A program made the position numbers and the translations under genes. This document shows, one piece after another, positions 20,545-61,094 of a stretch of 64,000 nucleotides of DNA (positions are counted from its first letter, which is position 1; each line of letters opens with the position of its first letter). Below the pieces are notes generated by a model. The model was not told the DNA's origin, made no database searches, and was given only the letters and a program-made list of their open reading frames with translations. The DNA is from Hyphomicrobiales bacterium (GTDB taxonomy: Bacteria; Pseudomonadota; Alphaproteobacteria; Parvibaculales; Parvibaculaceae), in assembly GCA_016124805.1 (NCBI GenBank), contig WGND01000001.1, positions 124,001-188,000 on the forward strand. Direction: 5' to 3'.

Positions 20545-23500
20545 CTACCAGGCGTAGGTGAGTGTGCCGCGCCCCGCGTAGCTGCGATAGCCGGACCCCT
20601 GTTCGCTGTCGACATGGGCCGCCAGCGTCCAGCCGGATGCAAGCTTCACTTCCGCACTCCCCGTCAGCAGCGCAGCATTTTCGGGCCGCGAGACACCGCG
20701 AACGCTAAAGCTCGAACCCGGCAGCGAGGCAAAGCTCGCCGTCACCGACGAATTGGCCGAATGATCATGGGCCCAGGCAAGGCCCGCCCCCAGCTTCAGC
20801 AATTTGCCATCCAGACGGACCGTGTGATCGACGCGGGCGCCAAGCTCGGTCCGCGTGTCGGTCACATTCATCGCGTCATAGGAAAGGGCAAAGCCGCCAC
20901 CGCCCAGATCCTCTTCCGTATGGGACGGGCTGCGGAAATGCTGAAGCTGCAAGGCGGCATAGGGCGTCAGGCCGACCGAGGGCGAGGGCTCGAGGCGATA
21001 GCCCGCTTCCAGACGCCCCGAATAGACCTGCGCCCTGAAGTCGGCCTTCAGGTGATCGCCCACCGCATAACGATCTGTCGTCATCCAGTGATTGGCCAGG
21101 CCTGCCGCAGCCGAGAGATAGGCTGGGCCGAAATTCGTCTTGCCATGCACACCGAACTGCAGCGCATCGCTGTCGCCGCCGCCGAGGCTGTTGGAGAGCT
21201 CCCATTCCGTGCGGCCATAGGCGAGCGCAAAGCCCATGACCGTATCGGCGCCGTAGTGGAAGTCCGCTCCCATCGCGAGACCATAGCTTGAGGCCCTGGC
21301 GGTATTTGCACCGCTCGAAGAATCACCATCCATACGGTTCCAGCCACCAAAAGCCGAGCCCCAATAGCTCCAGCCACCCACGGCTGGTTCATTTGCATCC
21401 GGCGTCTCCGCATAGGCGAGCGCCTCAGCGGGAATAGAGGCAGGCCTTCCAGGCGCAAAGCTCAGGCTGCCGCCTGACGACGCACCGCCCGAAGAGGCGC
21501 CCGACATCAGACCCAGGAACTGGTCCATCAGCTGGAAGCTGCCATTGGTGCCAGCGGTTGCCACTTCGCCGGACAGCTGGCTAAGGGCAGTCGCAAGATT
21601 GCCGCCATTCAATCCGAAGATCGTCAGGAAGTTCGACGGCATGGTGCCGCCATTGTTGAAATAGACATTGAGACCGCTCGCGACATTCTGCTGGTTTGCG
21701 TTGAGGCTGTCGCCCGCACCGAGCGCCGCGGTCAGATCAAGCAGCACATCCGTGCTTGTATATTCGAGGCTTGCCGCAAAGCCCGAAGGCAGATCGGTCG
21801 TCGCAAAACTATCGAAGGTTGTGCCGCCCAGGCCGGCAGACGTCAGAACTGTATATTGCTTGACGGCATAGCTGCCTGTGTCGAAAGCCGCGATTGCCGT
21901 GCCTGCCAATGAAGCCGTGCCGCTGACATTGGCATAGGAGGCGCTCGTCGGATCAACGGCCACGAGATAGTTCGAACCGCTGTCCAATGTCAGCGTTCCC
22001 GACACGGTCGTCGACCCGCCAGCGATACCCGCCGCGCCCGGCGCGAAGGTACCGCCGGAGGCGACCACCATGTTGCCCACTGTGCCTGTGCCGATCAAGG
22101 TTCCGCCCGCATTGATCGTCGTCAGAGAGGAAGATGCAATCGAGCCCGTTACGTCAAGTGTCCCGGCATCGACAGTCGTGGCGCCCGTATAGGTGTTGGT
22201 GCCCGACAGGATCAGCGTCCCGTCACCATCCTTCACAACATCGCCTGCCGTCGCGCCATCGGCGATGACGCCGGAAATCGTATTTGTGTTGCCCGCACCG
22301 ACGGTAAATGTCGGATCGCCTGCGACCGTAATATTGTTCGTGAGATTGATGCCCGTACCATCAAGCGTGAGGGCCGTGCCATTTTCAAGCGCCAGCGTAC
22401 CCGATCCCAATGAATCCGAATTGGTGATCGCAAGCGTACCGCCGTTGACCGTCGTGCCGCCAGTATAGGTGTTGGTCGCCGACAGGATCAGCGTCCCGTC
22501 ACCATCCTTCACAACATCGCCTGCCGTCGCGCCATCGGCGATGACGCCGGAAATCGTATTTGTGTTGCCCGCACCGACGGTAAATGTCGGATCGCCTGCG
22601 ACCGTAATATTGTTCGCGAGATCAAGGCCCGTTCCATCAAGCGTGAGGGCCGTGCCATTCTCAAGCGCCAGCGTACCCGATCCCAATGCATTCGAATTGG
22701 TGATCGCAAGCGTTCCGCCCGTGACCGTCGTGCCGCCAGTGTAGGTATTGTTGCCCGAAAGCGTGACCGAGGCGGTGCCGGTCTTGGCGACGGCGCCTGT
22801 GCCGGTGATCAGATTGTCAACGGCAACATCATTCGCCGACTGGTCGAAGGTCAACGTGCCGGTGACATCGATATTGCCGATGAGACCGGTGGTCGAATTG
22901 CTGAAGGTGATCTTGTTGTTGCCGCCGGTGAAGGTAATCGCATTCGCGCGTGTCACGCCGTCGCCGCCGAGACCACCGCTGATGATCGCGTCGTAGTTGT
23001 AGATGTTGAGGTCGGAACCGACGATGCCCGCGCCGCCTGCGCCGTCAGCGCCATCGACGGGAAGGACGAGATATTCCCCCGTACCTGCCACGCCCAAACT
23101 GCCGCCATCGCCACCGGTGATGCTGCCGAAGTTATCAATCCTCACAAACGCTGCGGCGAAGCCGGCGCCGCCTGTGCCGCCGTTGCCGCCATTGCCGCCG
23201 CCGGAGAGCGGGCTCGCACCGCCATTGCCGCCATTGCCGCCATTGCCACCGCTGACGGTATCGAAGTTTACAAAGCTCGCACCGATGGTACTGGTCAACG
23301 TGACGCCGATGCCGCCGTCACCGCCATTGCCGCCGTCGCCGCCCAAAGCTCCGCTTGCGCCGCCAGTCCCGCCATCGCCGCCATTGCCGCCGGTAACAAT
23401 GCCGCCGACGAGGTTGCTTGAGGCGCCATTACCGGTCATCACGACGCCGTAACCGCCCGCACCACCGCCGCCGCCGCCGCCGCCGCCCGCGAGGTCACCC

Positions 23501-23994
23501 GCGCCGCCGGTCCCGCCATTGCCGCCATTGCCGCCGATTATCGAGTCTGTATTGGCCATACCGGGGCCAACCGTGCCGTGGTTGCCGCCATGGCCGCCAC
23601 CACCACCGCCGCCGCCGAGGCCGCTCACCTCGTCATCGCCATTGGCACCATCGGGAGAAATCGCCGTACCGCCCGCGGCATTGGTTCCCGCATCACCGGC
23701 ACCACCTTGTCCGCCCGTTCCGCCGCCGGCCCCGCCGCCGCCGCCGCCGCCGCCGCCATAAGGCGCGTCATCACTACCTGCGCTGCCGGCATTGCCCGCA
23801 AACCCCGTGCCGCCTGCACCGCCAAACCCGCCACTAGATGCATGAAGCGCCGCTCCGCCCGTGCCGCCATCGGCGCGCGCGGCGGTCTGCGCGAGCGTTA
23901 GCGCCGTGATTGCGGTTGTGGTCAGAAGAATGGTTTTGAACGCTGAACGCGAAATACGCGCGCGTGACCCTTGGGCCGCGACTGAAAACGACAT
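20545..23994 (-). CDS. Type V autotransporter with glycine-rich passenger
   Basis: The protein has 1149 residues from ATG 23994 (GGTGGGGG just upstream). A signal peptide ends near AARA at residue 41. The passenger begins with about 280 residues of GGxGG triplet repeats (for example GGNGGNGGTGGAG), then autotransporter-associated beta-strand repeats (LSGNNTYTGGTTVTGGTLAI). Two 92-residue copies are nearly identical. About 275 C-terminal residues form the translocator barrel, ending LTYAW with the expected terminal aromatic. The barrel sits in the outer membrane and the passenger is exposed, probably for adhesion or aggregation. No protease catalytic motif was noticed. It interrupts the hisB-hslV neighbourhood. 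Confidence 0.92.
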   Translation of the reverse strand: MSFSVAAQGSRARISRSAFKTILLTTTAITALTLAQTAARADGGTGGAALHASSGGFGGAGGTGFAGNAGSAGSDDAPYGGGGGGGGGAGGGTGGQGGAGDAGTNAAGGTAISPDGANGDDEVSGLGGGGGGGGHGGNHGTVGPGMANTDSIIGGNGGNGGTGGAGDLAGGGGGGGGGAGGYGVVMTGNGASSNLVGGIVTGGNGGDGGTGGASGALGGDGGNGGDGGIGVTLTSTIGASFVNFDTVSGGNGGNGGNGGASPLSGGGNGGNGGTGGAGFAAAFVRIDNFGSITGGDGGSLGVAGTGEYLVLPVDGADGAGGAGIVGSDLNIYNYDAIISGGLGGDGVTRANAITFTGGNNKITFSNSTTGLIGNIDVTGTLTFDQSANDVAVDNLITGTGAVAKTGTASVTLSGNNTYTGGTTVTGGTLAITNSNALGSGTLALENGTALTLDGTGLDLANNITVAGDPTFTVGAGNTNTISGVIADGATAGDVVKDGDGTLILSATNTYTGGTTVNGGTLAITNSDSLGSGTLALENGTALTLDGTGINLTNNITVAGDPTFTVGAGNTNTISGVIADGATAGDVVKDGDGTLILSGTNTYTGATTVDAGTLDVTGSIASSSLTTINAGGTLIGTGTVGNMVVASGGTFAPGAAGIAGGSTTVSGTLTLDSGSNYLVAVDPTSASYANVSGTASLAGTAIAAFDTGSYAVKQYTVLTSAGLGGTTFDSFATTDLPSGFAASLEYTSTDVLLDLTAALGAGDSLNANQQNVASGLNVYFNNGGTMPSNFLTIFGLNGGNLATALSQLSGEVATAGTNGSFQLMDQFLGLMSGASSGGASSGGSLSFAPGRPASIPAEALAYAETPDANEPAVGGWSYWGSAFGGWNRMDGDSSSGANTARASSYGLAMGADFHYGADTVMGFALAYGRTEWELSNSLGGGDSDALQFGVHGKTNFGPAYLSAAAGLANHWMTTDRYAVGDHLKADFRAQVYSGRLEAGYRLEPSPSVGLTPYAALQLQHFRSPSHTEEDLGGGGFALSYDAMNVTDTRTELGARVDHTVRLDGKLLKLGAGLAWAHDHSANSSVTASFASLPGSSFSVRGVSRPENAALLTGSAEVKLASGWTLAAHVDSEQGSGYRSYAGRGTLTYAW
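22193..22744 (-). repeat. Two tandem 276-bp repeats in the autotransporter passenger
   Basis: Units 22193-22468 and 22469-22744 are in-frame tandem copies. A run of about 130 bp starting at CCGACAGGATC is identical between them, and the remainder differs at scattered sites. A diverged third unit begins after 22744. Each unit encodes one autotransporter-associated beta-strand repeat of 92 residues. Confidence 0.9.
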
Positions 23995-24344
23995 GATGCC
24001 CCCACCATAAATGCCGATCGGATCGAGCATTCCGGAAGGCACGCCCCAATCTGAAGTTCTGATTTTCGTAAAAAGGATGACAAGATTTTTTTGCGCCCGG
24101 CAAGTGAATAAAGCACGGCGGATTTCGCACGACATCATTTTTGGCCATTTGTGAAAAGCGGCAACAAATGCGCATCGGGAATTCATTCCCGTTTCCATTG
24201 CGACGCACTCTCAATAGCGCAGCCGAACACGTGAAAGGCCCTTGCAAGCCTTGACCCCGACGCCGCAAGACGCCACATGAAGGGTCGAGGCGCCAGCACC
24301 TCAAGTCATCCCCACCGACATCACCATCAGCCGAAAGCCCCTCC
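23995..24344. promoter_or_regulatory. Divergent intergenic region, autotransporter/hslV
   Basis: 350 bases without a gene, carrying the promoters for both directions. The part near 24060-24180 is AT-rich (runs of A and T). A CTTG occurs near the hslV side, but no CYTATNT follows at the right spacing, so I could not support a sigma-32 promoter for hslVU. Confidence 0.5.
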
Positions 24345-32958: not shown

Positions 32959-33551
32959 GGCATCACCAGGCCATGGCGGCGCAGCTCGGCGAGCAGCGGC
33001 AGGAGCGGCAGACCAAGGATTGTAAAATAATCGCCTTCAATCGACTGGAAGAGCTGGATGCCGGGACCCTCAAGCTGGTAGCAGCCGACACTTGTCATGA
33101 CCTTCTCGCCGAGCTCGGCAAGATAGTGATCAAGATAGACATGGGTGAAGCCGCGCATGGTCAGATGCGCCTCCTGTTCGAGGCCCCAGATGATCGCCCC
33201 TGATTTTGCCAGCGCGATGCCGCTATGAAGTGTGTGACGCTCGCCACGGAAGAACAGCAAATTCTCGCGTGCTTCCGCCATGGTCCTGGGTTTGTCGAAG
33301 CGGCACCCCTTGCAGCTCAGGATCTGATCGGCCCCGATAATGATAGCGTCGGGGTGCAGACGGCTGACAGCCAGCGCTTTTTCCTCTGCCAGCTTCAGGG
33401 CCAGCGGTGAGGTTTCGCGGTCCGCGAATCTTGTCTTGATCTCATCTTCGTCGATCTGCGAATTCACGATCTCGAAGGCGACACCGGCCTGGCGCAGCAA
33501 ATGGGCCCGTACGGCGCTGCCCGAGGCAAGGATCAGGGGCGGTAAACTCAT
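32955..33551 (-). CDS. maf: Maf-family nucleotide pyrophosphatase
   Basis: The 198-residue protein has the Maf start [21 protein letters not shown], the [21 protein letters not shown] core with the catalytic aspartate, and [13 protein letters not shown]. Members hydrolyse modified or canonical nucleoside triphosphates such as dTTP and UTP or 7-methyl-GTP; which of these applies is undetermined. Four-base overlaps join it to both ppsR and aroE. Confidence 0.94.
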
Positions 33552-34393
33552 GCGGCGGGTCCTTCCGCCTCGGAAATTTTCAGGCGTTCATTATAGAGAT
33601 TCAGCACGGCAGCCGCCGTTTCTTCGATGGAGCGGCGGGTCACATCAATGACCGGCCAGCCATGGCGCGCATAGAGACGGCGGGCAAAGGAAATCTCCTC
33701 GGCCACAACCAGCGGATCGGCATAGCTGGTGTCATTATTCTCTTTCAGCGAAAGAAGACGGTTCTTACGAATTTGCACCAGGCGATCGGGGCTGGTTGTC
33801 AGGCCGACGACGAGCGGATGCGTCACGGTTGCCAGATCCGGGGGCAGGGCCATGTTCGGCACGACGGGAATATTGGCCGCCTTGATGCCGCGATTGGCCA
33901 GATACATGCAGGTTGGCGTTTTCGAGGTGCGACTGACGCCCAGCAGAATGATGTCGGCATTGTTCAGATCGCCAGCCGACTGCCCGTCATCATGGGACAT
34001 GGTGTAATTCAGCGCGTCGATGCGACCGAAATATTCCGCATTCATTGTGTGCTGGGAGCCGGGCTTGTGGGAGGATTCCTTGCCCAGATATTGCCCGAGC
34101 GCCAGCATGACCGGATCGAGAACGGAAATGCAGGGCGTGTGAAGCTCGGCGCAGCGTGTCTCAAGCCGTTGCCGCAGCTCGGTATTTACCATCGTGAACA
34201 TGACGATACCCGGTGCTGACTCCACTTCGGCAAGCACCCGCTCCAGCTGCTTGGGGCCGCGCACCAGCGCATAGACATGCTCGATGGGTCTTGCTTCCTC
34301 ATACTGGGCACAGGCCGCGCGCGCGACCGCATTCAGCGTTTCGCCGGTGGCATCCGAAACCAGATGAAGATGAAAAATCCGCGTGCCGCTCAT
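33548..34393 (-). CDS. ppsR: Pyruvate, water dikinase regulatory protein (DUF299)
   Basis: The 281-residue protein belongs to the bifunctional ADP-dependent kinase/phosphorylase family controlling PEP synthase or pyruvate phosphate dikinase. It starts MSGTRIFHLHLVSDATGETLN and has the atypical P-loop GVSRTSKTPTCMYLA and NIPVVPNMALP. ATG 34393 has AGGA six bases upstream, better than the in-frame ATG at 34411. The gene is the neighbour (called RP001 in Rickettsia) that borders the replication origin opposite hemE in many alphaproteobacteria. Confidence 0.94.
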   Translation of the reverse strand: MSGTRIFHLHLVSDATGETLNAVARAACAQYEEARPIEHVYALVRGPKQLERVLAEVESAPGIVMFTMVNTELRQRLETRCAELHTPCISVLDPVMLALGQYLGKESSHKPGSQHTMNAEYFGRIDALNYTMSHDDGQSAGDLNNADIILLGVSRTSKTPTCMYLANRGIKAANIPVVPNMALPPDLATVTHPLVVGLTTSPDRLVQIRKNRLLSLKENNDTSYADPLVVAEEISFARRLYARHGWPVIDVTRRSIEETAAAVLNLYNERLKISEAEGPAA

Positions 34394-34504
34394 GCCATTC
34401 CTACCCTGCATCCAACAGATGATGCGGTGTGGAAACTATCGACGCAGGCCCCGGCTTGCCAGTTCTTTTGCAAAGAAGCCCCGCAGCCATGTTCATGGCC
34501 TGCC

Positions 34505-34513
34505 TGTGGATAA
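34505..34513 (-). promoter_or_regulatory. Perfect DnaA box
   Basis: TGTGGATAA on the plus strand is the reverse complement of TTATCCACA, the high-affinity DnaA binding site. Confidence 0.85.
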
Positions 34514-34833
34514 GGCCTTTTATCGGTGATAAGTGAGGTCTTGGCGGATGGTATGGCCAGGTCATACTTTTTGGCGTCAAAGCACCCCCCGCTTCATGCG
34601 CCTGTCGGAAATCCGGCCCTATCCCTTGGGAATCATGGGGATTGAATCCGTGTCAAAGTATGGCCGGGCACTTGTCCCCATGTTCCACAGGCCGGGTCAG
34701 AATTCAGTTCACAGGGAAAATGGCAGGCGTCATAACGCGTCCAGATGTCCTGATGACAGATTGGACAAAAATGAGTCACAAGCCATCTCATGAGAGAGGC
34801 AATCCGGCATGACTGTCAAAAAAAATGCAATTG

Positions 34834-34842
34834 TGGGGATAA
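34834..34842 (-). promoter_or_regulatory. DnaA box with one mismatch
   Basis: TGGGGATAA differs from TGTGGATAA at one position. It lies 16 bases from the tandem boxes near hemE. Confidence 0.6.
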
Positions 34843-34857
34843 GAGTCCTTGCGAATT

Positions 34858-34875
34858 TGATCCACATGATTCACA
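34858..34875 (+). promoter_or_regulatory. Two abutting DnaA-like 9-mers
   Basis: TGATCCACA (one mismatch to TTATCCACA) is followed directly by TGATTCACA (two mismatches). The pair borders the AT-rich stretch at 34876-34920, where duplex opening would be expected. Confidence 0.6.
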
Positions 34876-34931
34876 GGCATCTACAACTACAACAACCTAA
34901 AGATAGATTCTTATAGATAGAGAGACAGACT

Positions 34932-35996
34932 GTGAGCAAAGCGTCCGGGGCAAACCCAGCAAGAAAGAACAAGCGGCTCCTGCAGGCCTTGCGTGGTGAA
35001 AGACCTGACCATGTTCCCGTCTGGCTCATGCGGCAGGCAGGGCGCTATCTGCCGGAATATCGCGCAACACGCGGCAAGGCCGGTGGCTTTCTCAATCTTT
35101 GTTACACACCAGCGCTTGCCGAGGAAGTGACGCTTCAACCGATCCGCCGCTTTGGCTTTGATGCTTCGATCCTTTTTTCAGACATTCTCGTGGTGCCAGA
35201 TGCGCTGGGACAGAAAGTGGCTTTCCAGGAAGGCGAAGGCCCTGTGCTGGAACCTTTCACGGATTTGAAGGCGCTTGGCAAACTTGATCTGACAAAAATC
35301 AGAAGTCATCTGGCACCGGTTTATGAAACGGTGGAACGGCTTTCCAAGAGCCTGCCCGCCGAGACAACACTGATCGGCTTTGCCGGTGCGCCCTGGACCG
35401 TGGCGACCTATATGGTGGGCGGGCGTGGTTCGCCCGATCAGGGAGCGGCCAAGGCCTGGGCCTATCGCGCGCCTGATGAATTTCAGGTGCTGATCGATCT
35501 GCTGGTGGAAGCAACCATCGAGCATCTCTCGGCCCAGATTGAGGCCGGTGCCGAAGTCATCCAGATATTTGATACCTGGGCGGGCAGTCTTCCGCCGCTG
35601 TCCTTTGAGCGTTTTGCGCTTCAGCCCGTCAAAAAAATCTGGGCCGCCCTTCTTGCCAAATTTCCCGATGTGCCGGTGATTGCTTTCCCGCGTGGTGCCG
35701 GCGCCCAGATGGTGAATTATTTCAAGGAGACGGGCATTTCGGCGATCAGCATGGATACGGGTGTTTCGCCTGCCTGGGCGCGTGAGGCGCTGCAGCCGCT
35801 GGGTTGCGTGCAGGGCAATCTTGATCCGCTGCTGCTGGTGGCTGGTGGTCCCGAAATGCGGGCGCAGGCGGAGATGATCCTGGCGACGCTTTCGGGGGGG
35901 CCGTTCATTTTCAATCTTGGGCATGGCATTGTGCCGCAAACACCGCCTGAACATGTGGCTGAGCTTGTGAAGCTCGTCCAGGAATGGAAATCATGA
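34932..35996 (+). CDS. hemE: Uroporphyrinogen decarboxylase
   Basis: HemE converts uroporphyrinogen III to coproporphyrinogen III in heme synthesis. The 354-residue TIM-barrel enzyme has PVWLMRQAGRYLPEYRATR, the tetrapyrrole-binding signature, ILFSDILVVPDALG with the catalytic aspartate, GFAGAPWTVATYMVGG and the C-terminal NLGHGIVPQTPPEHV motif. It starts with GTG at the edge of the predicted origin, so its promoter must lie inside or beside the origin. Its stop overlaps the hemH start (ATGA). Confidence 0.97.
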   Translation: MSKASGANPARKNKRLLQALRGERPDHVPVWLMRQAGRYLPEYRATRGKAGGFLNLCYTPALAEEVTLQPIRRFGFDASILFSDILVVPDALGQKVAFQEGEGPVLEPFTDLKALGKLDLTKIRSHLAPVYETVERLSKSLPAETTLIGFAGAPWTVATYMVGGRGSPDQGAAKAWAYRAPDEFQVLIDLLVEATIEHLSAQIEAGAEVIQIFDTWAGSLPPLSFERFALQPVKKIWAALLAKFPDVPVIAFPRGAGAQMVNYFKETGISAISMDTGVSPAWAREALQPLGCVQGNLDPLLLVAGGPEMRAQAEMILATLSGGPFIFNLGHGIVPQTPPEHVAELVKLVQEWKS

Positions 35997-47251: not shown

Positions 47252-47267
47252 TGTTTCACGTGAAACA
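47252..47267. other. parS: Perfect parS site
   Basis: TGTTTCACGTGAAACA is the canonical 16-base palindromic parS sequence bound by chromosomal ParB. It is in the mnmE-mnmG gap, nine bases after the mnmE stop. Confidence 0.92.
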
Positions 47268-47347: not shown

Positions 47348-49216
47348 ATGACAAATTCGACCTATGATGTGATCGTGATTGGCGGCGGCCATGCCGGCTG
47401 CGAGGCTGCGGCTGCCTCGGCGCGCATCGGGGCCGAGACGCTTCTGCTGACCCACAAATTTTCGACGATTGGCGAGATGTCCTGCAATCCGGCGATTGGC
47501 GGCCTGGGCAAGGGCCATCTGGTCAGGGAGATCGATGCGCTGGACGGGCTGATGGGGCGTGTGGCTGATGCGGCTGGCATCCAGTTCCGGCTGCTCAACC
47601 GGCGCAAGGGGCCTGCCGTTCGGGGCCCACGCGCCCAGGCGGATCGTCGGCTTTATAGGGAGGCCATGCAGGCCGAGATTTCCGCCCAGCCCCATCTGAC
47701 GGTGGAAGAGGGCGGCGCCTTTGATCTGAAGGTCGAAGAGGGCCGCCTCAAGGGCGTCATCACGGAAGATGGCCGGGTCTTTCTCGCCGACCGTGTTGTC
47801 CTCACGACGGGCACTTTTTTGCGTGGCATGATTCATATCGGCACGCAGCGCATTCCGGCAGGGCGTGTGGGCGAGGCTCCGGCGCTAGGGCTGTCTGATC
47901 GGCTCTACGAGCTGGGCTTCAATATGGGTCGCCTCAAGACCGGCACTCCGCCGCGTCTGGATGGCAACAGCATCAAATGGCATGAACTGGAAGAGCAGCC
48001 GGGCGACACGCCGCCAGTGCCCTTCTCCATGCTGACAGAGGCCATCACAACGCCTCAGGTTTCCTGCCACATCACGCGCACGACCCGCGCGGGCCATCAG
48101 ATCATTCAGGACAATCTGAAATACTCACCGGTCTATTCCGGCCAGATTGAAGGGGTGGGACCGCGCTATTGCCCCTCGATCGAGGACAAGGTCGTCCGCT
48201 TCCATGAGCGGGACAGCCATCAGATTTTCCTCGAGCCGGAAGGTCTCGACGACGACACCATCTATCCCAATGGCATTTCCACGGCGCTGCCGGAAGATGT
48301 GCAACTCGCCTTTCTCAAGACCATTCCCGGTCTCGACAATGTGGTGATGAAACGCTGCGGCTATGCCATTGAATATGATTATATCGACCCGAGAGAGTTG
48401 CAGGCCACGCTTGAAACCAAACGCCTGAAGGGCCTTTACCTGGCCGGTCAGATCAATGGCACCACGGGCTATGAAGAAGCCGGCGCGCAGGGTCTTGTGG
48501 CGGGCCTCAATGCCGCATTAGCGGCTGCGGATAGGGCGCCTGTACATTTTGACCGGGCGACGGCCTATCTGGGGGTCATGATCGATGATCTGGTGACACG
48601 CGGTGTCAGCGAACCCTATCGCATGTTTACCTCACGCGCCGAATATCGCCTGACGCTGCGGGCCGACAATGCCGATCAGCGCCTGACGCCGACGGGCATG
48701 GCGCTTGGCTGTGTGGGCGAGGTGAGGGCGCAGTCTTTTGCCCGGAAGCTTGATGCGCTGAATGCGGCCACTGATCTGGCGCATGGCCTGAAGATGAATC
48801 CGGCACGCCTCATCGGTTTCGGTCTCAAGGTCAATCAGGACGGTGTGGCGCGCTCGCTCTTCGATCTGATGGCCTATCCCGATATTTCGCACGTGGACCT
48901 TCTGCGCGTCTGGCCGGAAATGGCGGGCATCGCGCCGGACATTCTCGAGCAGATCGGCAATGAAGCTCAATATGCGGGCTATCTCGGACGGCAGGAAGCC
49001 GACATCAGGGCGTTTCGCCGGGATGAAGGACTGTCCCTGCCTTTGGATATTGATTATGCCCAGGTGGCCGGTCTTTCGACGGAAGCGATCCAGAAGCTGA
49101 CCCATGCCCGCCCTGCCACAATCGGACAGGCCGGCCGGGTTGATGGTGTGACCCCGGCAGCCCTGACATGCCTGATGATTCACGTGAAACAACAGGCAAA
49201 GCGCCATATAGCTTGA
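47348..49216 (+). CDS. mnmG: tRNA uridine-5-carboxymethylaminomethyl modification enzyme MnmG
   Basis: MnmG (GidA) is the FAD-dependent partner of MnmE. The 622-residue protein has the dinucleotide loop [20 protein letters not shown], the [24 protein letters not shown] signature (in parts [13 protein letters not shown]), [11 protein letters not shown] and [17 protein letters not shown]. The C terminus ([17 protein letters not shown]) contains a one-mismatch parS inside its codons. The rsmG start follows only 15 bases later. Confidence 0.98.
49176..49191. other. parS: parS-like site inside mnmG
   Basis: TGATTCACGTGAAACA differs from the canonical parS sequence at one base. It encodes part of IHVKQ near the mnmG C terminus. 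Confidence 0.8.
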
Positions 49217-49230
49217 GGGTAGTGCCGGGG

Positions 49231-49890
49231 ATGGCCCAACATATGGTGCAAGTCATTGATTCAGAGTCCTTTTCTGCCTTTTATGATGTTTCACGTGAAA
49301 CAATGGCGGCTCTGGAGACCTATGAATCCCTGCTTTTGAAGTGGCAAAAGTCCATAAATCTTGTCTCAAATGCCAGTCTGGACAGTCTTTGGACCCGCCA
49401 CATGCTGGATTCAGCCCAATTGGCGGCTCTGGCACCCGCCGATACGCGGCGCTGGCTCGATCTCGGCAGCGGCGGCGGCTTTCCGGGGCTTGTGGTAGCA
49501 ATCATGTGGCGCGAAAGGCCTGACTTTCATCTCCATCTGGTCGAAAGCGATCAGCGCAAGGCGATTTTCATGCGGGAAGTGGTGCGCCAGACGGCGGCAC
49601 CGGCCAGTGTTCATGTCTGTCGCATCGAGGATTTCGACTGGCCGGAGCCCCAAAAACCCCGGATTGTCTCGGCCCGGGCGCTGGCGCCGCTGGATCGCTT
49701 GCTGGGCTGGGCCGCGCCCTTTTTCGATCCGGAGACGATTGGCCTGTTTTTGAAGGGGCAGGGGCTCAGTGATGAATTGACCTTGGCCCGGAAAGATTGG
49801 ATATTTAACCAAGAGATTACATCCAGTCAGTCCGACCCTTCGGGCACCATTCTGACCATAAGAGGCCTCCATGCAGCCGACCGCGTCTGA
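49231..49890 (+). CDS. rsmG: 16S rRNA (guanine-527-N7)-methyltransferase
   Basis: RsmG (GidB) methylates G527 of 16S rRNA with SAM. The 219-residue protein has SLLLKWQKSINLVSN, the SAM loop WLDLGSGGGFPGLVVAI, HLVESDQRKAIFMRE and ARALAPLDRLLGWA. ATG 49231 is chosen with GAGGG 11 bases upstream; ATG 49243 is an alternative. A perfect parS lies within its first 25 codons. Its 3' end overlaps parA by 20 bases. Confidence 0.95.
   Translation: MAQHMVQVIDSESFSAFYDVSRETMAALETYESLLLKWQKSINLVSNASLDSLWTRHMLDSAQLAALAPADTRRWLDLGSGGGFPGLVVAIMWRERPDFHLHLVESDQRKAIFMREVVRQTAAPASVHVCRIEDFDWPEPQKPRIVSARALAPLDRLLGWAAPFFDPETIGLFLKGQGLSDELTLARKDWIFNQEITSSQSDPSGTILTIRGLHAADRV
49287..49302. other. parS: Perfect parS site inside rsmG
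   Basis: TGTTTCACGTGAAACA occurs in the codons for DVSRET near the rsmG N terminus. It lies 111 bases from the previous parS-like site. Confidence 0.92.
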
Positions 49891-50758: not shown

Positions 50759-51021
50759 ATCATCCGTCAAAGGATGAATCTGTAAGTGCTGGTGGGAGCC
50801 AAGGCTCGTTTTTTCAGGCTCGATCTGAAGACTCTGAAGACTCTCCGCCAACGAATTGAATCGATTCAGGAATTGGCACTACCCGGTAGTGCCGTGAAGG
50901 TTTGAGAGCTTGATCGGGTTTCGCTGATTGCGGATAGGGCCCGTCTTTCTGGGAACGGATCGGCCATACCCCGGGGGCGGGCGATGGCCTGATTGAAGAG
51001 CAAATTTGAAGGATGAAGACC
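50759..51021 (+). promoter_or_regulatory. parA-parB gap with clustered GANTC sites and palindromes
   Basis: Four GANTC sites lie in 38 bases (50830, 50839, 50858 and 50863). The first two are in a tandem 9-base repeat TCTGAAGAC; the last two form the palindrome TGAATCGATTCA (50857-50868). Six bases on, GGCACTACC and GGTAGTGCC form an inverted repeat (50875-50893). The gap probably holds a separate, methylation-sensitive parB promoter. Confidence 0.55.
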
Positions 51022-51939
51022 ATGGCAGATGAAATGCCAAGCAGACTGGGACGGGGCCTTGCCGCATTGATCGGGGATGATGCGGCTTTTGCGCTGGGCG
51101 AGAATTCAAACCAGCAGGGCCCGGTCAAGGGGCTTCGCGAGGTGCCGATTGAATATCTGCGCGCTGGCCAGTTTCAGCCGCGCACGCGGTTCCGCGAAGA
51201 AGACCTGACAGACCTTGCCAACTCGATCCGCGAGAAGGGCATTTTGCAGCCCATCGTCGTGCGTCCGCTTGAGGGCGAGGTCAACAGCTATGAGATCGTC
51301 GCCGGTGAACGGCGCTGGCGGGCCGCCCAGCTGGCGCAGCTGCATCAGGTGCCGGTCATTATTCGCGAGCTGACCGATGCCGAGTCGCTCGAGATCGCCA
51401 TCATCGAAAATGTCCAGCGTGCCGATCTCAACGCGGTGGAGGAAGGGGCGGGCTATGAACGCCTGATGGCGCAGTTTGCCTATACGCAGGAAGCGGTTGC
51501 CAAGCTGATTGGCAAAAGCCGCAGCCATGTCGCCAATACGCTGCGCCTGCTCAGCCTGCCGGAGCCTGTGCGGTCCATGCTCGAAGATGGCCGTCTCTCT
51601 GCCGGACAGGCGCGGCCGCTGATTGGCCATCCCCAGGCGGAAAAGCTTGCCAAGGATATTGTCACCAAGGGCATGAGCGCGCGTGAAGCGGAAGCACTGG
51701 CGCGCAAGTCGACCGAGGCCGGCGGGCAGGGCAAGGTCAGGTCTGCGGGCCAAAGCGTGCTCAAGGATGCTGATACGGTGGCGCTGGAAAAGAATATTTC
51801 CGACCAGCTGGGCCTCAAGGTGTCGATCAATTTCTCCGCCGAAAAGGGTGGCGAGGTGAAGATCGGCTACAAGACGCTCGAACAGCTTGACGAGATATGT
51901 CGCCGTCTGGCTGGGCGCGGCCAGAAAATCAGCGGATAG
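51022..51939 (+). CDS. parB: Chromosome-partitioning protein ParB
   Basis: ParB binds parS, spreads as a CTP-dependent clamp and stimulates ParA. The 305-residue protein has an N-terminal ParA-contact stretch (SRLGRGLAALIG), the CTP-binding GERRWRAAQ motif, IIENVQRADLNAVEEG, and an HTH (AVAKLIGKSRSHVANTLRLLSL). The C-terminal dimerisation part has VKIGYKTLEQLDEICRRL. ATG 51022 has AAGGA eight bases upstream and is preferred to ATG 51013. Confidence 0.97.
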   Translation: MADEMPSRLGRGLAALIGDDAAFALGENSNQQGPVKGLREVPIEYLRAGQFQPRTRFREEDLTDLANSIREKGILQPIVVRPLEGEVNSYEIVAGERRWRAAQLAQLHQVPVIIRELTDAESLEIAIIENVQRADLNAVEEGAGYERLMAQFAYTQEAVAKLIGKSRSHVANTLRLLSLPEPVRSMLEDGRLSAGQARPLIGHPQAEKLAKDIVTKGMSAREAEALARKSTEAGGQGKVRSAGQSVLKDADTVALEKNISDQLGLKVSINFSAEKGGEVKIGYKTLEQLDEICRRLAGRGQKISG

Positions 51940-56877: not shown

Positions 56878-57496
56878 AGAGATTCGCCAAGCCCTTCGTT
56901 TCTGCCGTGCATTGAACCCGTTCCCGGGCATTCAATGATCCTGTCCAACACGCTTCCCGTGCCATTGCTGCTCTTTCAGAGGCTGCAAACGGCACCAGAG
57001 GTTGTCGCCAATTGGCGTATCAAGAGCAAGTGAATTCGCGATAAACAAGGCTTTTCCGCCCCATAAATCCCCGTCTCTGTTTCAAGCGCGGCGGGCGCGG
57101 CAAATCGGACCGGCGTGCCGGGATATGTGGTAATCAAGTAACAATTGATGCTTTGTGACGGCTCAATCGGGTGCGAAGGGAGTCTCTCAGGGGGCTTTTC
57201 ACATGCTGCCGGAATGTATGGAAATTAACCCATTTGACCGGATTTCATCGATTTTGCCCGATTCAGGTAAGGTTTTGTTAAGGAAGCGACGCCGCCATGT
57301 GCCCAATGTGCAACAAGGGCTGACATTCCATCGTCATAGTCCTGCCTTCGCTTGACCCGGAGCCCCTAAGACCGGATTAATTGGGCATGCGCTCGGGGGG
57401 CTTCTATGCGTCGGCCCGGCGATGGATACGGCCAGGGGCTGTTGTTACCTGGTTCGTGCATATGGAACAGCTCATAGCTGATACTGCGAGGAACAC
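56878..57496. promoter_or_regulatory. 619-base region upstream of the porin
   Basis: No gene is supported here. A plausible porin promoter has TTGACC at 57352-57357 and ATTAAT at 57376-57381 (18-base spacer), giving a leader of about 105 bases. The middle (57120-57300) is AT-richer, with several TTAA words but no TTAA-N7-TTAA pair. The DUF3576 promoter must lie near 56880-56950; I could not place it. Confidence 0.4.
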
Positions 57497-58660
57497 ATGA
57501 AAAAGATTCTCCTTGGGACGACTGCTCTCGTCTCCGCCGCAGCGGCCTTCTCGGCACCGGCGCTGGCCAGCGATCCGCTTGCCGTTACCGTCAGCGGCAC
57601 AGTCGTCGCCGGCTTCTATGTTGCCGACATCGACACGCCGTCCGGCACATCCTTCGAAGACACAGCGGTCAAGCTCGTTGCCCGTAACATCGATATCGCT
57701 GCTGAAGGCACGCTCGACAATGGCATGACGGTTGGTGCCCTTGCCAAGCTGCAGCTCGGCAATGACGAAAGCGTTGCGATCAGCGGTGGCGATGCCACAT
57801 TCAACGAACTCTATGCTTACCTCGAAGGTGGCTTTGGTCGCTTCGAAATCGGTGGCACAGACGGCGCTGCCTTCAAGATGCATTACACATCGCCCTGGTT
57901 CGTTCCTGGCAACGGTGTGGACTCGCCGAATATCTACAACAACAACAGCGTTTATACGCCAGGCGCTCCGTTCTTGGGTCAGACCATCGCTTCGCGTACA
58001 TCGACATTCGCTCTGATGACCGAAGATGCCAACAAGGTGTCTTACTTCACACCGCGTTTCGCCGGTTTCCAGCTCGGCCTGTCCTTCACGCCCGATACAT
58101 CCGCTGGCCTTGACCCGCGCGCCAATGGTTTCGGCTTCACAGCAACCAACAACACTTTCGCTCAGAACGTGTTCGAAGTTGCCCTGAACTATTCCGGTTC
58201 CTTCGGCGGCGTCGACGTCGGCGTTGACGGCTTCTACGTCACTGGCGAAGCTGGTGCCAACACAGGCGATCCGGAAGAATATGGCGCTGGTGCAAACCTC
58301 GGCTATATGGGCTTCACGCTTGGTGGTGCTTACTACAAGAGCGAAGACATCGCGAATGCCAGCCAGAACTCTGTTGCTGCTTCTACGCTCGGCATTGAAA
58401 AAGAAGTCTGGACCGTTGGTCTTTCCTACGGCACAGGCCCATGGACAGTTGGTGCCGCCTACATTGAAGGCACAACGAGCTTTGCCGGTACATCGGCTGA
58501 ACTCAAGAACGACATGGTTCAGGTCGGTGGTGGCTACAACCTCGGCGCTGGTGTTGATATCGGTCTCGACGTTCAGTTCATCAACAACGACTTCAGCGAT
58601 TTCGGCGGTGCCGACATTGACTCCACATCTGGTGGTCTGGTTCTCGCCGTTTCGTTCTAA
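57497..58660 (+). CDS. Outer-membrane porin
   Basis: The 387-residue protein has a signal peptide (MKKILLGTTALVSAAAAFSAPALAS, cleavage after ALA) and an alternating beta pattern typical of a 16-strand general porin: VTVSGTVVAGFYVADI, YAYLEGGFGRFEIGG, and the final strand GGLVLAVSF with the C-terminal Phe needed for assembly. It resembles the Gram-negative porin family Porin_4. GAGGA lies just upstream of the ATG, and a strong terminator follows, suggesting high expression. About half of its threonines use ACA. Confidence 0.92.
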   Translation: MKKILLGTTALVSAAAAFSAPALASDPLAVTVSGTVVAGFYVADIDTPSGTSFEDTAVKLVARNIDIAAEGTLDNGMTVGALAKLQLGNDESVAISGGDATFNELYAYLEGGFGRFEIGGTDGAAFKMHYTSPWFVPGNGVDSPNIYNNNSVYTPGAPFLGQTIASRTSTFALMTEDANKVSYFTPRFAGFQLGLSFTPDTSAGLDPRANGFGFTATNNTFAQNVFEVALNYSGSFGGVDVGVDGFYVTGEAGANTGDPEEYGAGANLGYMGFTLGGAYYKSEDIANASQNSVAASTLGIEKEVWTVGLSYGTGPWTVGAAYIEGTTSFAGTSAELKNDMVQVGGGYNLGAGVDIGLDVQFINNDFSDFGGADIDSTSGGLVLAVSF

Positions 58661-58680
58661 TCGAATGACAATACAAATGG

Positions 58681-58712
58681 AGAGAGCGGGCTTTTGCCCG
58701 CTCTCTTTTTTT
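58681..58712 (+). terminator. Strong intrinsic terminator after the porin
   Basis: Arms 58681-58691 and 58696-58706 (AGAGAGCGGGC and its complement) pair perfectly around TTTT, followed by a T6 tail (58707-58712). Confidence 0.95.
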
Positions 58713-58773
58713 GTGTCCGACGCCTGAGAAAAATTTGATACAAAGGGCACAAATTCGATGAAGGAAGAATCTT

Positions 58774-59613
58774 ATGGGTGCCTTGATCTGGCTTGCCTCC
58801 TATCCGAAATCCGGCAATACGTGGCTGCGCTCCTATCTGCATAATCTGCTGCGCAACACAGTTGAGCCGCATGACATCAACGAGATTGATCATTTCTGTC
58901 TTGGTGAGTCCTATATCAAATGGTACGACCGCCTGACGGACAGGCCTTTGAATGAAATGACGCCGCTAGAGTTGGCAGCATTGCGCCCCGAAGGGCAGGT
59001 TGGTTTCACAAAAGTGTTTCCTGACTCCGTCTTCGTCAAAACGCATAATTTTCTGGGCGAATGGCTCGGTTATCCGCTCCACAATATGGATGTGACCGCT
59101 GGCGGCATTTATGTGCTGCGCAATCCGCTCGATGTGGTGCTATCTATGACGCATCATTTTGGCATGACGATCGATGAAGCCATCTACCGTCTCGGCAATG
59201 AAAAATCCGCCACGGGATTGACGGAAACACATATGCCTGAAATTCACAGCTCATGGTCGACCCATGTGCGGAGCTGGACACAGCACCCCAATCCGCAGCT
59301 CCTTGTCTTGCGATATGAAGACATGATCAATGAGCCGCTAAAATATTTTACGCAGGTTGCAAATTTTTTGGGTCTGAAACCAAGTCAGGAGCGCATTGAG
59401 CGCGCCATTCGGAACTCCTCCTTCAAGACGTTGAAAGAGCAGGAGCAAAAAACCGGTTTCAAAGAAAAATCGGAACATGCTCAATCCTTTTTCAGGGAAG
59501 GGAAAGTTGATCAGTGGCGTGAGAAACTGACACCTTCACAGATCCGCCAGATCATTGTGGAGCACCGCGAACAGATGCAGCGATTTGGCTATATTCCAGC
59601 CGACTTTGCCTGA
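58774..59613 (+). CDS. Sulfotransferase, first of a tandem pair
   Basis: The 279-residue cytosolic sulfotransferase has the PAPS 5'-phosphosulfate loop WLASYPKSGNTWLRS near the N terminus, the 3'-phosphate loop GGIYVLRNPLDVVLSM with its conserved Arg, and the C-terminal FFREGKVDQWREKLT motif. It transfers sulfate from PAPS to an unknown acceptor; family members act on carbohydrates, lipids or small molecules. A second copy follows 36 bases downstream. Confidence 0.9.
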   Translation: MGALIWLASYPKSGNTWLRSYLHNLLRNTVEPHDINEIDHFCLGESYIKWYDRLTDRPLNEMTPLELAALRPEGQVGFTKVFPDSVFVKTHNFLGEWLGYPLHNMDVTAGGIYVLRNPLDVVLSMTHHFGMTIDEAIYRLGNEKSATGLTETHMPEIHSSWSTHVRSWTQHPNPQLLVLRYEDMINEPLKYFTQVANFLGLKPSQERIERAIRNSSFKTLKEQEQKTGFKEKSEHAQSFFREGKVDQWREKLTPSQIRQIIVEHREQMQRFGYIPADFA

Positions 59614-59649
59614 ACCTGTTTGTAAAAGTGTTTTTAGGAGCGCTATGAA

Positions 59650-60489
59650 ATGGGTGGTTTGATATGGCTTGCCTCCTATCCGAAATCCGGCAACACATGG
59701 ATGCGCGCCTTTTTAGCAAATCTCCTTGCCGATCTTCCCAGCCCTGTGCCTGTCAATAATTTAGGTAATTTCTGCATTGGGGAATCGGATCGCAAGCTTT
59801 ACGAGGGCGTACTGCCGAAGCCGCTTGAGGAGGTTGGAGTAAAGGAGATCACCGCTCTGCGCCCTCGTGTGCATGAATCTTTAACCCATTTTTCAAAGGG
59901 CCCGGTTTTCGTCAAAACGCATAACTACATGGGCTCTTGGTTTGATGTCCCTCTACTGAACTTACAAGTAACAAAGGCAGCGATCTATATCGTGCGAAAT
60001 CCGCTGGATGTTGTGCCATCTGCGGCAAATCATTTTAATGAAACCATTGACCAGGCTATCAAGCGTTTGGCTACAGTTGGAAACGGAACACCGTTAACTG
60101 CAAGCCATATTCCTGAGGTACACAACAGCTGGTCCCTTCATGTGGATACGTGGTCTCTTCATCCCAATCCTCACATGCTGGCACTACGCTATGAGGACCT
60201 AGTTGCTAACCCTGAGATACAGTTCAGACGTGTGATGCAATTCCTCGGACTCCCACAGGATGAAAAGAGATTGCAAAAAGCAATACGTCACTCTTCCTTC
60301 AATGCTCTCAAGGCGCAGGAAGATCGGGGTGGATTCAGGGAACGTCCCGAACATTCAAAGGCGTTCTTTCGCGAAGGTCGGTCTGAAGCATGGCGTGATA
60401 TCCTGACACCTGACCAGGTTAGACAGATCATCAATGATCATCGGGCAACCATGCAGCGCTTGGGCTATATTCCGGAAGATTACGCCTGA
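59650..60489 (+). CDS. Sulfotransferase, second of a tandem pair
   Basis: The 279-residue paralogue has the same motifs: WLASYPKSGNTWMRA, AAIYIVRNPLDVVPSA and FFREGRSEAWRDILT, and the same length as the first copy. The two are roughly half identical by eye, yet a 29-base stretch coding the PAPS loop is identical in both. Codon use is visibly AT-richer than in the first copy, which hints at different ages or a different source. It overlaps the convergent ThiE-like gene by 10 bases. Confidence 0.9.
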   Translation: MGGLIWLASYPKSGNTWMRAFLANLLADLPSPVPVNNLGNFCIGESDRKLYEGVLPKPLEEVGVKEITALRPRVHESLTHFSKGPVFVKTHNYMGSWFDVPLLNLQVTKAAIYIVRNPLDVVPSAANHFNETIDQAIKRLATVGNGTPLTASHIPEVHNSWSLHVDTWSLHPNPHMLALRYEDLVANPEIQFRRVMQFLGLPQDEKRLQKAIRHSSFNALKAQEDRGGFRERPEHSKAFFREGRSEAWRDILTPDQVRQIINDHRATMQRLGYIPEDYA

Positions 60490-61094
60490 AGCCAGCTGAT
60501 GCCGGCGACACCATCGACGCCGGTGCCGGTCAGCCGCCTGACATGCGCAGGCGTTTCAATGCCACCAAGGGCGAAGGCGAGCAGACCCAATGCATTGGCG
60601 ATGTGCGTGAGACGCGCCAGACGCGTGACACCGATCGCCTTGCTCCCGGTGTGACTCCTCGTTTTGAAGACAGGCGAGATCAGCACCATCTGCGCCCCGG
60701 CCCTTGCCGCCGCATAAAGAGCGGCCTCTGAATGTGTCGCCGCGCAGATGATTTTTTGATTTCCATACGGACGAAATGCCATGCGCTCGGGCAGGTGGCG
60801 CCCGTCGGCAAGCGGAAACGAGCCGCGCTCGCCTGACGCGGAGACCAGCAGCAGACAGTTTTTGGCGCGCGCCTTTCGGTGAAGATTTCGCAAGACGGCG
60901 GGTGCGATGTGGCCTGCTGGTCGCAGGATCAGCATGGCCCCGCGTGGCAGCAGATCAAGCGCTCGCGCCATGTCAGGCAGGCGCGACGGATCGCTCATGC
61001 CGATCAGGCTGAATGTGGCATGGGGATTGAGCCGGTCGGCAGCCCGCTTCATCTCTGCGGCCCTGCGCGTGGCCTTGCCAGCATCATCTGTCAT
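60480..61094 (-). CDS. ThiE/TenI-like thiamine phosphate synthase family protein
   Basis: The 204-residue TIM-barrel protein has the C-terminal ThiE pattern AATHSEAALYAAARAGAQMVLISPVFKT (parts THSEAAL and LISPVFKT), then ALGLLAFALGGIETPAHVRR and TGVDGVAGI. The N-terminal DARLILRPAG region is divergent and the pyrophosphate-binding QLR.KD motif of true ThiE is not seen, so it may be a TenI-like or degenerate relative. It is divergent from yggS. Confidence 0.7.
   Translation of the reverse strand: MTDDAGKATRRAAEMKRAADRLNPHATFSLIGMSDPSRLPDMARALDLLPRGAMLILRPAGHIAPAVLRNLHRKARAKNCLLLVSASGERGSFPLADGRHLPERMAFRPYGNQKIICAATHSEAALYAAARAGAQMVLISPVFKTRSHTGSKAIGVTRLARLTHIANALGLLAFALGGIETPAHVRRLTGTGVDGVAGISWLQA

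Follow-up and report, generated by a model that had tools for sequence, protein, structure and literature searches.

Cori of Caulobacter crescentus occupies the gap between hemE and CC0001, and its flanking genes, DnaA boxes and AT-rich region all have counterparts at the locus described here. The Caulobacter origin and the predicted Rickettsia origin both lie between hemE and the COG1806 (ppsR) gene, and Cori carries five CtrA sites and an IHF site (PMC1914354). The same text describes origins at hemE in which CtrA sites are scarce or missing, for example in E. ruminantium and one Wolbachia strain, and reports that GC skew is insufficient for origin prediction in several alphaproteobacteria (PMC1914354). 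The predicted Rickettsia, Wolbachia and Ehrlichia origins share a hemE boundary, DnaA boxes and raised AT with our locus, and some of them, like ours, have few or no CtrA sites; unlike our locus, they belong to intracellular species, and Wolbachia has COG1253 rather than COG1806 beside hemE (PMC1914354).

The locus lies in a 64-kb stretch of DNA (the window; G000:C12:124001-188000, strand +) of a 3.21-Mb genome, G000, which is held in 20 contigs and is 99.76% complete. An intergenic gap of 538 bp (34394-34931), here the predicted oriC in its entirety, separates ppsR on the left (COG1806, DUF299; 33548..34393, - strand; NCBIfam PRK05339.1, 341 bits, cut-off 225) from hemE on the right (34932..35996, + strand, GTG start; TIGR01464, 395 bits, cut-off 303), with both genes reading outward. 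The PpsR protein scores above the cut-off of the subfamily model PRK05339.1 and below that of the narrower NF049928.1. Its open frame extends to 34411, the start assigned earlier (34394) being the second Met (residue 7); congener matches begin at residue 7 in 9 of 25 cases and at residues 1-6 in the other 16. The left edge of the gap is accordingly uncertain by 18 bp. GC content is 0.50 across the 520 bp between the frames, compared with about 0.6 for most of the window. Among named ppsR matches the closest (82-84%) belong to P. sedimenti, three Parvibaculum MAGs and an uncultured alphaproteobacterium. These labels are the basis of the genus name, and 24 and 26 genomes of the genus were found besides the target. 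Searching a plasmid collection with the gap gave no match. Elsewhere in the window, a 1217-codon open frame (20545-24198, - strand) has long glycine-rich repeats and, by eye, an autotransporter-like end, and a low-GC segment (57001-61000; 0.51-0.55 in 2-kb windows) includes a 448-aa frame (57407-58750, - strand) with no NCBIfam match at 1e-10.

Of 26 genus loci, 25 have ppsR, gap and hemE in this arrangement; the other, L123, ends 709 bp beyond ppsR, before hemE would be reached. These rows include close relatives, so the counts are not independent. One of the 27 genus genomes, G020 (57% complete), has no ppsR match. Among the best 80 of 530 named loci the arrangement recurs in 74, with gaps of 300-769 bp between matched residues. 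The remaining six lack a hemE match: L021 and L075 hold only about 200 bp upstream, whereas L010, L012, L035 and L050 have more than 3 kb without hemE. Comparisons beyond the genus used 69 gaps, named loci L001-L005 being set aside as their gaps are identical to genus gaps. BLASTN of the whole gap against 40 relatives returned only the self match, so it is individual elements, not the whole gap, that are conserved. Aligned blocks comprise a TGTGGA box, GATTAACG (in 19 of 25 genus gaps, absent from the target), GGTCATACC-like sites and, next to the unwinding end, TGATCCCCG with CACAG after it.

Three DnaA boxes with at most one mismatch fall in the gap (0.14 expected; none of 200 dinucleotide shuffles reached three). 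The perfect box, TTATCCACA (34505..34513, - strand), aligns with the TGTGGA boxes of congeners. The box scan placed one-mismatch boxes near hemE, TTATCCCCA (34834..34842, - strand) and TGATCCACA (34858..34866, + strand); most aligned congeners have TGATCCCCG at the latter position, and we take TGATCCACA to be a G-box of Caulobacter Cori. There is also a weak DnaA-like box, TTGTCCCCA (34672..34680, + strand). Over the whole 64 kb, eight boxes against 5.72 expected is no clear excess, so what counts is the clustering: boxes of the forms TTNTCCMCR and TGATCCMCR, four in the 520 bp of the gap, are nowhere else packed as tightly in the 400 kb of contig examined. The genome has only 13 perfect boxes in all, against 21 for the reversed control, and any two of them are more than 3 kb apart. 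The enrichment extends to relatives, with 42 boxes in the 25 genus gaps, target included (1.86 expected, 23-fold over chance), and 104 in the 69 other alphaproteobacterial gaps (5.81 expected), all at one mismatch or fewer. Scanning for TGWTCNCA gave neither an excess nor a match within the gap.

The end of the gap beside hemE is AT-rich (0.60-0.68 in 50-bp windows starting at 34820-34880) and harbours the window's minimum of stability at lengths of 40, 60 and 100 bp. The least stable 60 bp (34866..34925), with imperfect CTA trios by eye, are the likely unwinding element. Between 9 and 14 places in 400 kb are less stable, so the element is not unique on that scale. When each 3.4-3.9-kb genus locus is taken by itself, its least stable 60-mer nevertheless sits at the hemE end of the gap in 23 of 25 cases, the target among them (exceptions L105 and L116). 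The layout of DnaA boxes, a short spacer and CTA trios beside an AT-rich end resembles the bacterial BUS module (PMC8287927). It differs from that module (PMC8287927) in that the trio-like CTACAACTACAACAACCTA after the boxes alternates CTA and CAA triplets and, by eye, has no three consecutive standard trios.

The gap holds six GANTC sites, two within 34630..34648 and others at 34773, 34843, 34868 and 34906. The window as a whole has 91 where 293 are expected, a depletion that looks like the avoidance expected with CcrM. Across the genus, GANTC density is 4.90 per kb in gaps and 1.06 in flanks. Measured against shuffles of the gaps themselves the excess is modest, both in the target (6 vs 2.48, reached by 0.040 of shuffles) and in the genus (68 vs 49.5); the enrichment is strong only relative to the surrounding DNA. 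The GANTC site just before hemE is part of AGATTCTTA (34905-34913), which is found in 13 of the 69 other gaps against 0.18 expected and so recurs far beyond the genus.

Two perfect parS sites, the only ones in the genome, lie 12-14 kb to the right of the gap, one between mnmE and mnmG (47252..47267) and the other in the 5' part of the open frame holding rsmG, whose family match starts further in (49287..49302). A one-mismatch site lies at the end of mnmG (49176..49191), and a parB-family gene follows at 51013..51939 (+ strand; TIGR00180, 190 bits, cut-off 58). All eight genomes searched have exactly two perfect parS sites, on the contig of ppsR and roughly 13-19 kb from it, with a single-mismatch site beside one of the two; in the single-contig congener G014 the three sites are 15-19 kb from the gap. 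Weaker matches are scattered in G000, G001, G002 and G018, and the reversed control gave 0-2 matches per genome at two mismatches. We presume that Caulobacter likewise combines GANTC sites with nearby parS.

Compositional skew, which had been put forward as a check on an origin at this place, gave a mixed answer. It was computed for the target on 400 kb of one contig rather than on a whole chromosome. Keto skew has its best change point at kb 159, beside the gap at kb 158.4-158.9, and TA skew agrees on the 400 kb, although on the first 318 kb alone its best point is 216, with 159 among the top five. GC skew alone changes at kb 164. None of 300 permutations gave gains as good. The octamer GNTGGTGG, which we take to be chi-like, switches strand bias from 14+/33- in the left 158 kb to 64+/16- in the right 241 kb, whereas GGGNAGGG shows polarity on the right arm (34/3) and none on the left (20/17). 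The arms differ in GC skew too, the left (G000:C12 left of 158 kb) being near zero (-1.26 per kb) and the right strongly polarised. The fraction of long open frames on the + strand rises from 0.39 to 0.58 over about 159 kb on either side, and changes little within 50 kb of the gap (0.39 to 0.43). The keto and TA results on 400 kb thus speak for the gap, whereas GC skew misses it by several kilobases and G014 shows no switch there: over 1.20-1.62 Mb of that genome GC and keto skew share a best point at 1280 kb, which is 108 kb to the left of the gap (1388 kb), and TA skew has its own at 1445 kb. Skew in G014 therefore fails to support an origin at the gap, possibly as a result of rearrangement, and 20-kb skew samples around its chromosome are noisy and not decisive. 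A search for dif with the E. coli-type pattern at three mismatches found no match in G000 or G014.

Taken together, the evidence makes it very probable that the gap is the chromosomal replication origin. The preliminary description had proposed as much from a perfect DnaA box with one-mismatch companions, an AT-rich end beside hemE and outward-facing flanks, and each of these was recovered: the boxes at 34505 (-), 34834 (-) and 34858 (+), the least stable stretch of the window, and ppsR (-) and hemE (+) by NCBIfam and TIGR matches. Its appeal to the same gap in Caulobacter, Rickettsia and relatives is borne out by the hemE/COG1806 interval of the Caulobacter origin and of the predicted Rickettsia one (PMC1914354). 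Position, content, keto change point, parS proximity and conservation all agree. In keeping with established oriC biology, DnaA-ATP would occupy the boxes at 34505, 34834 and 34858, the last two close to hemE, and melt the AT-rich stretch (34866-34925) beside hemE, where helicase would be loaded and forks would leave in both directions. Segregation of the new origin would follow through ParB bound to the parS sites, 12-14 kb rightward, and the GANTC sites would make the gap sensitive to its CcrM methylation state.

Could the gap instead be only a divergent promoter region, its DnaA and GANTC sites transcriptional and the origin elsewhere? It necessarily contains two outward promoters, and in Caulobacter DnaA is also a transcriptional regulator (PMC3193534). 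However, precedent in the Alphaproteobacteria, the keto change point, the stability minimum of the window and the genome's sole perfect parS sites converge on the gap, and we regard this explanation as very unlikely. An origin near dnaA, as in many other bacteria, is more improbable still: dnaA is on the same contig, about 112 kb to the left (G000:C12:45536-46927), and the numbering of G014 starts at dnaA, but C12:45000-48500 has no box with one mismatch or fewer, the best skew change points are not at dnaA, and in G014 dnaA is 1.39 Mb from the gap by record numbering, with three parS sites 15-19 kb from the gap. In the G014 record dnaA is at G014:C1:1715-3103, whereas the ppsR-hemE gap (1387364) and the parS sites are near 1.39-1.41 Mb; the origin of that chromosome therefore probably does not lie at position 1.

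As an origin, then, the gap is ordinary for its class; what stands out is a layout free of CtrA sites and a pair of sites restricted to the origin. None of the 25 genus gaps contains TTAA-N7-TTAA, the CtrA site (0.23 expected). The same pattern was found in 27 of the 69 other alphaproteobacterial gaps, at 49 sites; each palindromic site is counted on both strands, giving 98 against 1.77 expected. Every one of the 15 loci labelled Caulobacter, Phenylobacterium, Brevundimonas, Caulobacteraceae or Caulobacterales is positive, as are all eight from Microvirga and Candidatus Phaeomarinobacter (L008), which has one site. These positive gaps mean that the absence in the genus is not a detection failure; absence is also common in the class, the other 42 of the 69 gaps being without a site. 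All ten loci labelled Rhodobiaceae, PS1 or IMCC14465 (L007, L009, L011, L017, L018, L024, L027, L030, L032 and L037) lack TTAA-N7-TTAA too, which suggests that the absence of CtrA sites extends above the genus level. CtrA itself is encoded (G000:C7 near 300178, - strand; NF045991.1, 426 bits, cut-off 350), and its receiver domain aligns with crystallised CtrA (4qpj) at 1.3e-65. Unlike Cori, the target gap has neither a CtrA site nor a match to the IHF consensus WATCAN5WTR. This consensus is a weak detector (2 sites in genus gaps vs 2.27 expected; 16 in the other gaps vs 8.68), as is the IHF pattern WATCAANNNNTTR, which occurs in none of the 94 gaps. On the pattern of sites, and in contrast to Cori, CtrA probably does not gate the target origin by binding within the gap.

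The second feature is an inverted pair of GGTCATACC-like sites. In the target its left site is GGTCATACT (34560..34568, + strand) and its right site GGCCATACT (34657..34665, - strand), 97 bp start to start; next to the left site lies GGCCATACC (34550..34558, - strand), the left half of a GGTATGGC-CAG-GTCATAC inverted repeat. The 64 kb contain five copies of GGYCATACY (0.89 expected), and a single 116-bp stretch of the gap accounts for three. Exact inverted GGTCATACC pairs 60-110 bp apart are present in 16 of 25 genus gaps (0.00 expected), rising to 17 at one mismatch and 20 at two (0.40 expected), compared with 0, 1 and 5 of the 69 other gaps at zero, one and two mismatches (1.95 expected at two). 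Spacing is 77-78 bp in 17 gaps and 97 bp in the target, L124 and L126, whose pairs require two mismatches; the two spacings differ by about two helical turns. Five genus gaps (L103, L104, L105, L113 and L116) have no pair at two mismatches or fewer. A pair with one mismatch, spaced 77 bp, turns up in the distant locus L062. Cori-like gaps differ from the target here as well: 12 of the 15 Caulobacter-type gaps have no pair at two mismatches, and the three that do (L041, L046 and L070) are near chance (1.95 in 69), C. crescentus Cori itself being outside this set. Such a pair goes unmentioned for the Rickettsia, Wolbachia and Ehrlichia origins in the available part of the source (PMC1914354).

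By pattern search, the exact pair occurs in 16 of 27 genus genomes, once in each and in every case immediately upstream of ppsR. Among 387 genomes sampled across the class, only two of them from the genus, four have exact pairs and the reversed control gave five; ppsR and hemE adjoin only the Parvibaculum match (G011), the other three having neither within about 1.5 kb. The conserved pair is probably bound by some factor. Literature searches for Cori-binding factors found nothing, and for the 9-mer or its complement all of the matches listed look unrelated by title. In our reading the locus is an origin of a familiar type that carries a control module specific to its lineage. We tentatively suggest, as a possibility that we hold doubtful on balance, that Parvibaculum and its close relatives uncoupled CtrA from the origin, and that an origin-dedicated DNA-binding protein with essentially no other targets replaced it, binding the inverted GGTCATACC-like pair (77-78 or 97 bp) and perhaps forming a loop of the DNA that separates the unwinding end from the far DnaA box.

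It is quite plausible, if a little short of probable, that the pair is instead an ordinary operator for ppsR or hemE, unrelated to replication. In every gap that carries it the pair lies between the two divergent genes, and its GGT-N3-ACC presumably resembles GntR/PdhR-type operators; since PpsR acts as a regulator of PEP synthase or PPDK, an operator that responds to pyruvate would be reasonable. Against a GntR form, the target's own copies lack GGT-N3-ACC symmetry. More generally, no second target came to light: in the four stretches examined, the additional GGTCATACCCG copies of G014, G001 and G018 (four in all) fall inside mechanical open frames of 91 codons or more. The pair is also located between the DnaA box at 34505 and the weak box at 34672. 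Because both genes are attached in every readable genus locus, replication control and a ppsR/hemE operator are inseparable by sequence.

Much less likely is that the pair belongs to an origin-encoded non-coding RNA. Such an RNA has a precedent in ccnA, inside Caulobacter Cori (PMC8959179), but Rfam and tRNA scans of the window returned nothing, with no Rfam family at gathering score, and the right-hand copy in L105 has direct orientation, which is incompatible with a hairpin. We rejected a hairpin reading of the pair on the strength of that copy.

Whatever binds the pair, this analysis places the origin in Parvibaculum, a genus for which our literature search found no paper on the origin. It also bears on how widely CtrA controls replication in the Alphaproteobacteria. 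The genus retains CtrA, its origin gap is devoid of CtrA sites, and the inverted pair is a specific, testable cis element that may have assumed their function.
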